DNA of 45,863 bases, taken from assembly GCA_001798135.1 (NCBI GenBank), contig MGRJ01000029.1:1-45863 (forward strand). The letters run 5' to 3'. The translations under genes and the position numbers were made by a program. This DNA is from Deltaproteobacteria bacterium RIFCSPHIGHO2_02_FULL_40_28 (GTDB lineage: Bacteria > UBA10199 > 2-12-FULL-40-28). Every line of letters starts with the position of its first letter. Position 1 is the stretch's first letter. The notes beneath the pieces were generated by a model that had not been told where the DNA came from, did not search any database, and saw only the letters and a program-made list of their open reading frames with translations. Positions 3,241-40,563 of the stretch are shown here, one piece after another.

Positions 3241-3244
3241 TGTT

Positions 3245-3404
3245 GGATAAGTGAGTAGAAGAAAAAATTTTTAGCAAAAGACGCGATCTTTAAGGCATCG
3301 AGCCTTAAAGTCGCTCGCTCTCGCCAATTTGTTTATTTTTTTCGGATGGACAAATTGGCTCCGAGACGCTTTTGCTAAAAATTTTTTCTTCTACTCACTT
3401 ATCC
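3245..3404. repeat. Perfect 36-bp inverted repeat with structured 88-nt centre
   Basis: The arms 3245-3280 and 3369-3404 are exact reverse complements over 36 bases (outer end GGATAAGTGAG, inner end TAGCAAAAG). The centre holds further hairpins: CTTTAAGGC/GCCTTAAAG around 3288-3310 and GCCAATTTGT/ACAAATTGGC. Such a long perfect palindrome could be a non-autonomous mobile element, a cruciform-forming site or a structured RNA. It directly abuts the start of the hydrolase gene on one side and DnaA-box-like sequences on the other. Confidence 0.85.
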
Positions 3405-3560
3405 ACATCTGTGCATAAAACTGTGGATATAAATGTATGGTAGTGTATGTTAAAAATTAACCCCAGAGGCATGTCCAATTTGAGGAGTAAAGTCCCCATA
3501 TTTTGTACACTGTCTTTATAAATAGCTAATATTATTTATTATTTTTAATAACGCATGATG
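3399..3560. other. DnaA-box-like cluster followed by AT-rich DNA (possible replication origin or DnaA-regulated site)
   Basis: TTATCCACA at 3399-3407 is an exact match to the classical DnaA box. TGTGCATAA at 3410-3418 and TGTGGATAT at 3422-3430 are each one mismatch from the same box on the other strand. About 80-120 bases further on, 3510-3550 is almost entirely A/T and could melt easily. The stretch lies where genes to the left run leftward and the next gene runs rightward. Exact boxes also occur by chance and in gene promoters, and no dnaA, dnaN or other origin marker gene is in view, so this is a candidate only. The rest of 3431-3607 shows no other feature. Confidence 0.35.
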
Positions 3561-3607
3561 GCATTATCTTTGCTTAAAGTGTTCATAGAATGGACGTTTT
3601 AAAAAAG

Positions 3608-3738
3608 GAGTCTGTTGAAAAAAGTAGTTTTCCACCAATTTTGTCATTCCCGCGGAGGCGGGAATCCAGTCTTTTCAATAAGTTCTGGATCCCTGCCTTC
3701 GCAGGGATGACAGAGGAATGACATTCTTCAACAGACCC
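3608..3738. mobile_element. 131-bp MITE copy 1 with terminal inverted repeats and 5-bp target duplication
   Basis: The element begins GAGTCTGTTGAA and ends TTCAACAGACCC. Its interior carries the GTCATTCCCGCG/CGCAGGGATGAC palindromes. AAAAG flanks it at 3603-3607 and 3739-3743. A second copy of identical length lies at 40402-40532, with roughly a dozen base differences. No coding capacity is present. The right-hand AAAAGGAG now supplies the Shine-Dalgarno of the gene at 3752. A transposase would have to act in trans. Confidence 0.8.
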
Positions 3739-3751
3739 AAAAGGAGCAAAA

Positions 3752-4471
3752 ATGGGAGTTTTAAATAGTTTTTTTCCAAATGTAACCAGAAATGTTTCAA
3801 CAGGGGAATTTTTAGAACTTCCCATGGGGAAGAGATTTAAACCTCACAGTACTGAGCAAGTTCAATTGAGTGAGGACTCTCTCTCAAATGTTTCAGTTGG
3901 CACTTATCGCAATGTTTTTGGTGACCATGCTCTGGGAATTCAAATTGAAAAGGGGAATCAAACTCAATTTTCTGCTTTTAATTTTTCCTCTGGATTTACA
4001 GGTGCTAGTAATCCCATTACAGACCTTGATACCCTTTGGAAGGATATTGATAGTGATGGCGACCTGGATTTACTTTGTGGATTTTTAACAGGTGGGGAAA
4101 ATTGTTGTGCTGAAGCTGGTTTTTTGATTTTTGAAAATAACAAAGGCCGCTTTTTACAACGCATTTCCACCCTAGATAGTGATGGAACAGGATTTTATTC
4201 GTGTGGAGCCTGCATGATAGGCTTAAGTTTATTTGATAAGCGCATTAAAATAAAAGCTCGCAACATGGATGTTTTTGAAAATGAGGGCCGTATTGGAATT
4301 CGTTTTGAATATTATCATCCTCAAAGTGAGGCTTACAAGGAAGTAAGCTTGGGTGAAAACGAATGGAATTTTACCTTGGATGATGAAGGAGAAATTAATC
4401 AAGACAGCATCGCAACTTCCAAACCAGATGAAGAACTTTATGTTCAGCTGTACGAGGATTATTTATCCTAG
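3752..4471 (+). CDS. Hypothetical protein with one VCBS/FG-GAP-like Asp-rich loop
   Basis: The 239-residue product has no signal peptide or membrane segment that I can see. Around residue 97 it has DIDSDGDLDLLCG, an Asp-rich calcium-binding loop of the kind found in VCBS/FG-GAP blades and EF-hand-like repeats. A Cys-rich stretch follows (GGENCCAEAG, FYSCGACMIG). I do not recognise the family. The start is supported by AAAAGGAG about six bases before the ATG. A 131-bp MITE sits directly upstream, so its original promoter has been separated from the ribosome binding site. A strong terminator follows at 4500. Confidence 0.65.
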   Translation: MGVLNSFFPNVTRNVSTGEFLELPMGKRFKPHSTEQVQLSEDSLSNVSVGTYRNVFGDHALGIQIEKGNQTQFSAFNFSSGFTGASNPITDLDTLWKDIDSDGDLDLLCGFLTGGENCCAEAGFLIFENNKGRFLQRISTLDSDGTGFYSCGACMIGLSLFDKRIKIKARNMDVFENEGRIGIRFEYYHPQSEAYKEVSLGENEWNFTLDDEGEINQDSIATSKPDEELYVQLYEDYLS

Positions 4472-5236: not shown

Positions 5237-5324
5237 CCCCTCACCCCCGCCCCTCTCCCCAAGGAGAGGGGAGAGAAAATATCCCCCCTCCCTTGAGGGA
5301 GGGGGTGCAGGGGGAGGGGGAGAG
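5237..5324. repeat. Palindromic repeat, CCCCTCCC family (family B)
   Basis: Two hairpins in tandem (CCTCTCCCCAAGGAGAGG, then CCCCTCCCTTGAGGGAGGGG) separated by AAAATATC. It fills the gap between vapB and trmFO. Just downstream, 5331-5352 (CCCTGAACTTGTCAAAGGG) looks like a further short repeat. Confidence 0.8.
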
Positions 5325-14244: not shown

Positions 14245-14333
14245 TCCCCTCCCCCTTGAGGGGGGAGGGTTAGGGAGAGGGTGAAAATTTTAACACCCCT
14301 CACCCTGCACCCTCTCCCCCAAGGGGAGAGGGG
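14245..14333. repeat. Palindromic repeat, CCCCTCCC family (family B)
   Basis: Two hairpins in tandem (CCCCTCCCCCTTGAGGGGGG and CCTCTCCCCCAAGGGGAGAGG) lie between tldD and tldE. The right end GGGGAGAGGGGAAATATTGG runs into the start of tldE and supplies its only Shine-Dalgarno-like sequence. Confidence 0.8.
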
Positions 14334-16269: not shown

Positions 16270-16392
16270 GAGATTTTTTGCCCACCTCTAATCTTTGTCA
16301 TTCCCGCGGAGGCGGGAATCTATCTTTAATTTTTTAAGATGGATCCCCGTTTTCACGGGGATGACAAAAAAATAGGGTTTTGCAAAAATCTC
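16270..16392. mobile_element. MITE-like element with GTCATTCCC core and a different terminal repeat
   Basis: GAGATTTTTTGC (16270-16281) and GCAAAAATCTC (16382-16392) are near-perfect terminal inverted repeats. They surround the GTCATTCCC...GGGGATGAC core (16297-16365), which the two 131-bp MITEs also carry with other ends. No target duplication is obvious. The rest of the gene-free stretch 16141-16482 holds a family C hairpin at 16431-16455, and I see nothing else in it. Confidence 0.5.
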
Positions 16393-23055: not shown

Positions 23056-23125
23056 TCCCCTCCCCCTTGAGGGGGGAGGGTTAGGGAGAGGGTGGGTTCT
23101 GTCATTCCCATGAAAATGGGAATCC
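23056..23125. repeat. Family B palindrome followed by a half copy of the GTCATTCCC palindrome (family A)
   Basis: CCCCTCCCCCTTGAGGGGGGAG with the tail GGGTTAGGGAGAGGGTG is followed by GTCATTCCCATGAAAATGGGAAT. They fill the murE-murF gap. The hairpin could weaken transcription or protect mRNA ends inside the operon. Confidence 0.75.
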
Positions 23126-23146
23126 ATCTTTGAATCTAATTTTATT

Positions 23147-34783: not shown

Positions 34784-34793
34784 ACGGTTTTGT

Positions 34794-34884
34794 GTCATCC
34801 CTGCGAAGGCAGGGATCCAGAAACTTTTGAAAAGACTGGATTCCCGCTGGAGTTTACCCCTGCGAAGGCAGGGGCGGGGATGAC
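34794..34884. repeat. GTCATTCCC/GTCATCCCTG-type palindromes (family A) between ftsA and ftsZ
   Basis: GTCATCCCTGCGAAGGCAGGGATCC begins it, a damaged middle ATTCCCGCTGGAG... follows, and CCTGCGAAGGCAGGGG...GATGAC closes it. This is the interior of the MITE core without its terminal repeats. It happens to be open in the ftsZ frame back to ATG 34790, which would give a false N-terminal extension of FtsZ. Confidence 0.8.
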
Positions 34885-34900
34885 AGTTAAGGAGGATAAT

Positions 34901-36310
34901 ATGTTTGAATTTGAAGAAAATTTAGCTCATGCCGCAAAAATTAAAGTCATTGGGGTAGGTGGTGGTGGTGGAAATGCAGTCCGAACCATGATTCGCTCCA
35001 AGTTAGATGGGGTTGAGTTCATTGTAGGAAATACAGATGTGCAAGCCTTGAGAAATCACGAGGCCATGGTGAAAATCCAGCTTGGAAACGATCTCACCCG
35101 TGGTTTAGGGGCAGGGAGTAATCCAACCGTAGGACGAGATGCAGCCTTAGAGGATGTAAGATGTATTCAAGAAGCCTTAGCTGGTGCCGATATGGTATTT
35201 ATTACAGCGGGTATGGGTGGTGGTACGGGAACGGGCGCCTCTCCTGTTATTGCACGTATTGCCAAAGAAGTAGGAGCTTTAACGGTAGGTGTTGTTACCA
35301 AACCTTTTTCATTTGAGGGGAAAAGGCGATTATCTCAAGCAGAAATTGGCATTCAAGAATTAAGAAAAGAAGTGGATACCTTGATTACCATTCCAAATGA
35401 GCGTTTACTTACAGTAGCCACTAAAGACACTCCTATTTTGGATTCTTTCAAAATGGCTGATGATGTTCTTTTGCAGGCCGTTAAGGGAATTTCAGATTTA
35501 ATTACCATTCCTGGGCTTATCAATTTAGATTTTGCAGATGTTAAAACCGTGATGCGAGAAACAGGTATGGCCTTGATGGGTACAGGCAGGGCTCATGGAG
35601 AAAACCGGGCGCTAGAAGCAGCGAAGCAAGCTATTTCTTCGCCTCTTTTAGAAAATGTTTCCATTGCTGGAGCGACGGGCATCCTTTTAAATATTACTGG
35701 TAGCTCAAACATGACTTTATTTGAAGTAAACGAAGCTTCTAAATTAATTCAAGAAGAAGCTCATCCTGAAGCTCATATTATTTTTGGAGCTGTGATTGAC
35801 GATAAAATGAAAGATGATTTGCGTGTTACTGTTATTGCCACTGGTTTTCAGAGAGAAGGAGACAGTAAAGTTGTAAATATGCCAGAGCGTCAGCCTTATG
35901 TTTTAAAAAGTTGGGCTAGAGCTAAGGCTCAATCTCAAACCCAACCTGCTGGATCCCAAACAACAACTCCTGCTTCTGCTGTTTCACGCCCTTCTCAGTA
36001 TACACCTTCAGAGTCTCCACATTTTCAGCCTGGAGAACGTGTTGAAACCAGATCTCGGTTTGAAACGGAAACTCCCAGAAGCATGTTTGAAACAACCCCT
36101 CGTTTTGAAACCCCAAAAAGGGCTCCTGTGCCTCAGGCCACGCCCATGTTAGCTGAGGTTGCTTTTGAAAAAGAAGATCCGCCATTTAAAGCCAAGATTA
36201 ATTTCGAAAAAGAAGAAACCGATCTCAAAAAAATGATGTCGGAAGTTGATCTTGCTAATATCGATGATGAATACGACATCCCGGCCTTTATTCGTAGGCG
36301 AGCGGATTAG
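34901..36310 (+). CDS. ftsZ: FtsZ, tubulin-like division GTPase
   Basis: The 469-residue product polymerises at midcell. [17 protein letters not shown] starts the GTPase core, [15 protein letters not shown] is the tubulin signature, and [11 protein letters not shown] and [21 protein letters not shown] are in the C-terminal subdomain. A variable Pro/Thr linker (about residues 330-440) leads to the conserved C-terminal peptide [14 protein letters not shown] that binds FtsA. The start ATG 34901 has AAGGAGG six bases before it. The in-frame ATG 34790 is inside a repeat and is rejected. Confidence 0.98.
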
Positions 36311-36320
36311 AAAAAAGAAG

Positions 36321-36360
36321 TCCCCTCTCCCTTGAGGGGAGAGGGGCAGGGGAGAGGGTG
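36321..36360. repeat. Palindromic repeat (family B) supplying the ftsK ribosome binding site
   Basis: CCCCTCTCCCTTGAGGGGAGAGGGG is followed by CAGGGGAGAGGGTGAAATATTGG. The end is almost identical to the one before tldE. GGGGAGAGGG lies about seven bases before the ftsK TTG. Confidence 0.8.
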
Positions 36361-36365
36361 AAATA

Positions 36366-40289: not shown

Positions 40290-40401
40290 AATTTCTAAAT
40301 GTTTACCATTTCCTTAAAAAACTCAAACAAATTAAAAAAAAAGAAACATTTATATGTAAAAAGATTCAGTTGGAAAAAAACTCTGTTATCCGATAAATTA
40401 T

Positions 40402-40532
40402 GGGTCTGTTGAAAAATATAGTTTTCCACCAATTCTGTCATTCCCGCGAAGGCGGGAATCCAGTCTTTTCAATAAGTTCTGGATCCCTGCTTTCGCAGGG
40501 ATGACAGAGGAGAGACATTTTTCAACAATCCC
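40402..40532. mobile_element. 131-bp MITE copy 2 with 5-bp target duplication
   Basis: It begins GGGTCTGTTGAAAAA and ends TTTTTCAACAATCCC, with two mismatches between ends. ATTAT flanks it at 40397-40401 and 40533-40537. The interior matches the 3608-3738 copy at equal length. It lies just upstream of pepA and provides an accidental in-frame ATG at 40501. Confidence 0.85.
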
Positions 40533-40563
40533 ATTATATCAATTATACCCCATGGAGGTTTTC

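Follow-up and report, generated by a model that had tools for sequence, protein, structure and literature searches.

The two 131-bp elements in the window, by which we mean the whole 45,863-nucleotide stretch of DNA analysed, are very probably MITEs that were moved in trans by a transposase, probably of the DDE type, making a 5-bp cut, with a CGTC-1 REP dimer as their cargo. The dimer is separable from the ends that enclose it and appears to have been captured repeatedly.

Two MITEs in the window enclose a CGTC-1 REP dimer

The first-pass annotation had described two copies of equal length with distinct flanking 5-bp repeats. Re-reading the window confirmed both copies, their coordinates (Table 1), their length of 131 bp and the repeats, AAAAG/AAAAG around copy 1 and ATTAT/ATTAT around copy 2. 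The copies are ~92% identical (120/131). Their ends had been given as GGGTCTGTTGAA; the ends do match as inverted repeats, but this exact sequence is found at one end per copy only, the others being GAGTCTGTTGAA on the left of copy 1 and GGGATTGTTGAA on the right of copy 2. The consensus end over many copies is GGGNNYGTTGAAAAAT, and we refer to ends of this type as TIR-A. The interior had been called a widespread palindrome, and this palindrome is present in both copies as two REP hairpins in opposite orientation.

CGTC-1 REPs consist of a C/TGTC tag, an 8-bp stem starting with AT, a 4-nt loop and a CCA tail, and are paired as dimers (PMC3733652). All four monomers of copies 1 and 2 have exactly this structure, with TGTC as the tag, and in being paired they resemble the published CGTC-1/dRS3 dimers (PMC3733652). 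The window contains eight CGTC-1 monomers, compared to 0-1 in shuffled sequence. CGTC REPs occur in several phyla, include the neisserial dRS3 repeats, which belong to the CGTC-1 family, and have been reported without a dedicated transposase (PMC3733652). A search of the window against Rfam gave no match.

Table 1. Positions of the MITEs, their parts and related repeats. Positions are those of the window, except in the last row, where they are those of the named loci of genome G023.
Feature	Position	Strand	Remarks
MITE copy 1	3608..3738	+	131 bp; TIR-A ends around CGTC-1 REP dimer
Copy 1 left target duplication	3603..3607	n/a	AAAAG
Copy 1 right target duplication	3739..3743	n/a	AAAAG
Copy 1 left terminal inverted repeat	3608..3623	+	GAGTCTGTTGAAAAAA
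Copy 1 right terminal inverted repeat	3723..3738	-	GGGTCTGTTGAAGAAT
Copy 1 CGTC-1-type REP monomer	3642..3668	+	TGTC-ATTCCCGC-GGAG-GCGGGAAT-CCA
Copy 1 CGTC-1-type REP monomer	3686..3712	-	TGTC-ATCCCTGC-GAAG-GCAGGGAT-CCA
MITE copy 2	40402..40532	+	131 bp
Copy 2 left target duplication	40397..40401	n/a	ATTAT
Copy 2 right target duplication	40533..40537	n/a	ATTAT
Copy 2 left terminal inverted repeat	40402..40417	+	GGGTCTGTTGAAAAAT
Copy 2 right terminal inverted repeat	40517..40532	-	GGGATTGTTGAAAAAT
Copy 2 CGTC-1-type REP monomer	40436..40462	+	
Copy 2 CGTC-1-type REP monomer	40480..40506	-	
REP dimer	16296..16366	n/a	without TIR-A ends
REP dimer	34793..34885		without TIR-A ends; right arm widened by inner palindrome; just upstream of ftsZ
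CGTC-type REP monomer	23100..23126	+	single
35-36-bp elements	L129 110-144, L130 127-161, L131 123-157, L141 1989-2024, L143 1950-1984		two TIR-A ends back to back

Ends and core moved together and left 5-bp duplications

A BLAST search of the own genome (2.16 Mb, 31 contigs) with copy 1 returned 54 matches, of which about ten are near full length. We also searched this genome for the ends, as the first-pass annotation had proposed, and paired them regardless of their flanks. This yielded 16 elements of 35-236 bp, 11 of which are flanked by exact 5-bp duplications; in two more, four of the five bases match. Four of the 131-bp copies (G000 C30:58291, C30:14775, C22:61022 and C10:36553) are identical to the letter, with the duplications ATAAA, TTAAT, ATAGT and TTTAA, respectively. 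Since four identical composites carry four different duplications, the ends and the core must have been inserted together, and recently. The orientation of the core relative to the ends is constant among the 131-bp copies of this genome. The elements thus have what characterises MITEs: 16-bp terminal inverted repeats, a short length (mostly 106-236 bp) with no conserved ORF seen, a target duplication of fixed length, here 5 bp, and near-identical copies at unrelated sites, as in the four identical copies with differing flanks.

The duplications were then counted in nine genomes of one class, using 67 pairs picked by their ends alone, from loci that had been retrieved by end motif or similarity without use of the flanks. 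Exact 5-bp duplications were found at 33 of the 67 pairs, whereas 2000 shuffles that re-paired the flanks averaged 0.93 and never exceeded 5, which shows that they are not due to chance. Repeats of 2, 3, 4, 6, 7, 8, 9 and 10 bp were exact at 4, 2, 1, 0, 0, 0, 1 and 0 of the 67 pairs, respectively. The 33 exact duplications have an A+T content of 84%, with T at position 2 in 27 and A at position 4 in 26 of them, and this consensus fits a symmetric NTNAN target. In genome G011, 15 of 20 pairs lack a duplication, and eroded duplications are more frequent than in the other genomes. The end motif itself was matched 45 times in G011 and 43 times in G023, compared to one match in each for the reversed control.

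The ends carry other cores and the dimer lies between other ends

TIR-A ends are also found around unrelated sequence in relatives, the nearest of those compared belonging to the same order. In G023 and G008 they enclose a different palindrome, with exact 5-bp duplications in each genome; in G005 they enclose a TTGCGAGC-type REP dimer (duplication ATCAA). A 152-bp element in G036 has an unrelated core (AATCA), and G025 has a 106-bp element (TTAAA). Five elements of G023 are 35-36 bp long and consist of two TIR-A ends back to back and little else (Table 1), each with its own, different, exact 5-bp duplication. Either these are transposons of an extremely small size, or they are the footprints of core deletions between GCCAT direct repeats.

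Conversely, in relatives the CGTC-1 dimer lies in the middle of at least two MITE families with other ends. One family in G011 (family C), of 133-135 bp, has the terminal inverted repeat GTAAC..GTGA..GGGTG and 8-bp duplications at three sites (CAAAAAAT, ACTCTCGT and TAGTTTTT), the last of which requires that a C at the right tip be changed to T. Another, in G025 (family D), is represented by one clean copy of 128 bp with a duplication of about 10 bp (AATTTTTTAT). The own genome also has REP dimers between a second set of ends, which are IS5-like (TIR-B), with duplications that are not clean enough for a claim. Free-standing CGTC-1 dimers without TIR-A ends occur as well. In a sample of 38 dimers lacking TIR-A ends, 13 have flanking inverted repeats with a score of at least 9, compared to 1.8 expected, this sample being biased by the retrieval of its loci through similarity to the 131-bp unit. 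Because the same ends occur with other or almost no cores, and the same dimer occurs elsewhere, the ends and the core are separable.

Search for the mobilising enzyme

The first-pass annotation had also suggested looking for an IS that shares these ends. No autonomous element with TIR-A ends, which MITE membership does not require, was found in the own genome, the class relatives or the viral contigs searched. Family searches of the own genome for DDE_Tnp_1, IS1182, Tn3 and DDE_Tnp_1_5 were all negative and so gave no partner with TIR-A ends, and no transposase gene was recognised by eye in 40 sampled contig-end pieces of this genome. In the relatives, reading from unpaired ends to ~6 kb gave no second end at IS length with a convincing duplication, and among 90 end-motif matches in viral contigs there was no plausible pair at IS length. 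The TIR-A ends presumably resemble those of IS903. For TIR-B, a viral contig contains an IS5-family element of 1,296 bp (NF033581), whose ends, GGGCACCTCTAAAAAC/GGGAACCTCTAAAAAC, match TIR-B and whose flanks have a 4-bp repeat (CTCT). An IS5-type element was found for TIR-B ends only and none for TIR-A, and the own genome yielded no IS5-type transposase.

Origin of the composite elements

The outer palindromes could be targets only, with CGTC REP dimers inserting themselves and the composite never having been mobile as a unit. The published description of Halothiobacillus neapolitanus is similar, as all CGTC-1 dimers there lie within a GGG...CCC palindrome that was called the target (PMC3733652). 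Dimers do occur without TIR-A ends, and some lie inside the halves of other REPs, so that they seem to enter palindromes. However, each of the four identical composites is flanked by a different 5-bp duplication, and the core-to-end orientation is constant among the 131-bp copies. Self-insertion into a passive target is therefore already disfavoured for this family, and we consider it improbable.

We give still less credence to the possibility that the unit is a REPIN, with the outer repeats as part of it, moved by a RAYT (Y1 transposase). The own genome has three Y1_Tnp matches, one of which weakly matches the model of REP-associated tyrosine transposases, below the cut-off. However, REP palindromes flanking a RAYT gene, the arrangement that marks REPIN/RAYT systems, were not found: none of the palindromes GTCATTCCCGC, GTCATCCCTGC and GTCATCCCGGC was present near the three Y1_Tnp genes. 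TIR-A ends also occur without REPs, and exact 5-bp duplications are generally not expected of Y1 (HUH) enzymes. A chance or convergent hairpin without transposition, such as a terminator family, would fit the very stable folding of the units (RNA z = -9.7) and the mostly intergenic position of the copies in the own genome, but the excess of 5-bp duplications (33/67 compared to 0.9 expected) refutes it for the whole family, and we assign it next to no probability.

Movement as MITEs with a captured dimer is the explanation we favour. A transposase, probably of the DDE type, would recognise ends of the GGGNNYGTTGAAAAAT form in trans and cut AT-rich NTNAN targets with a 5-bp stagger. The CGTC-1 REP dimer would have been acquired as a cargo core and, once between the ends, would be copied along with them. 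We infer both that a DDE enzyme moved the elements in trans and that the dimer entered the MITE, as opposed to growth of the ends around the dimer; entry would have been into pre-existing MITEs, possibly through a preference for the loop of a palindrome. The first-pass annotation had left open whether the palindrome is a transposable unit in its own right or has been captured by one. Capture is favoured because ends and palindrome move together, because the same ends carry other or almost no cores, and because the palindrome also occurs free-standing and in other families of terminal inverted repeats with other duplication lengths; the palindrome itself being the transposon did not hold.

The dimer-bearing MITE families have duplications of 5, 8 and about 10 bp. 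CGTC-type REP dimers may have spread by repeated capture into unrelated MITE families, each with a different transposase, although we put this forward tentatively and rate it somewhat below even. If true, a palindromic cassette is passed between transposon shells.

Relation to known repeats

A REP-bearing MITE is already known from one precedent, QMITE2 of Coxiella burnetii, a 150-190 bp MITE with terminal inverted repeats and copy-specific direct repeats that contains a REP (PMC5896051). The window elements are likewise REP-bearing MITEs with terminal inverted repeats and copy-specific direct repeats. In contrast, QMITE2 has a GTAG REP and direct repeats of 7-11 nt (PMC5896051), whereas the elements described here have a CGTC-1 dimer and 5-bp duplications, and one end type is common to several genera of one class while the cores differ. 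They also differ from the dimers of PMC3733652, in which the outer palindrome is called the target, in that the outer repeats here are transposon ends with target duplications. Three things are new: a CGTC-1 core in elements that have 5-bp duplications, a single end type that several genera share around differing cores, and the presence of one core in several MITE families. Searching the literature for either the core or the end sequence brought up nothing relevant.

CGTC dimers in MITEs with clean duplications provide a concrete route for the spread of repeats that have no known mover. Looking for inverted repeats and a duplication outside a CGTC dimer is a test that can be used on any genome. 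Palindromic cores that differ widely can be carried by a single set of transposon ends in different genera of the same class.

Repeats and gene starts near the elements

The arms of some REPs contain a 22-bp palindromic expansion (GGAGTTTACCCCTGCG.AGGCAGGGGC), seen at window positions 34848-34878 and in L104, L105 and L106 of G011. Both the own genome and G011 have this expansion, which explains the unit lengths of 110, 132 and 154 bp. REP dimers lie beside or inside half of another REP at seven loci (L018, L021, L023, L024, L030, L033 and L045), often with a similar, ATCATT-like 6-bp spacer, as if inserting at REP loops; such nesting hints that dimers prefer palindromes. The window also has a second family of dispersed palindromes, of the CCCCTCCCTTGAGGGGAGGGG type, at 2133-2176, 5281-5324, 14245-14288, 23056-23099 and 36321-36364, and a MITE copy of 236 bp (L019) contains related sequence within its loop. 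Just upstream of copy 1, at 3244-3405, is a perfect 37-bp inverted repeat (TGGATAAGTGAGTAG...) with arms 88 bp apart, of which there was no second copy among the loci fetched.

The right AAAAG of copy 1 forms, with the next bases, the Shine-Dalgarno-like sequence AAAAGGAG shortly 5' of an ATG at 3752. The longest ORF of the leucyl aminopeptidase gene begins within copy 2, at an ATG (40501) that shares its frame with the probable true start (40564), so automatic annotation could overextend this gene. The longest ftsZ ORF likewise starts at a TTG beside a REP dimer (window 34790-34901), which poses the same annotation hazard; the likely start is the ATG at 34901.
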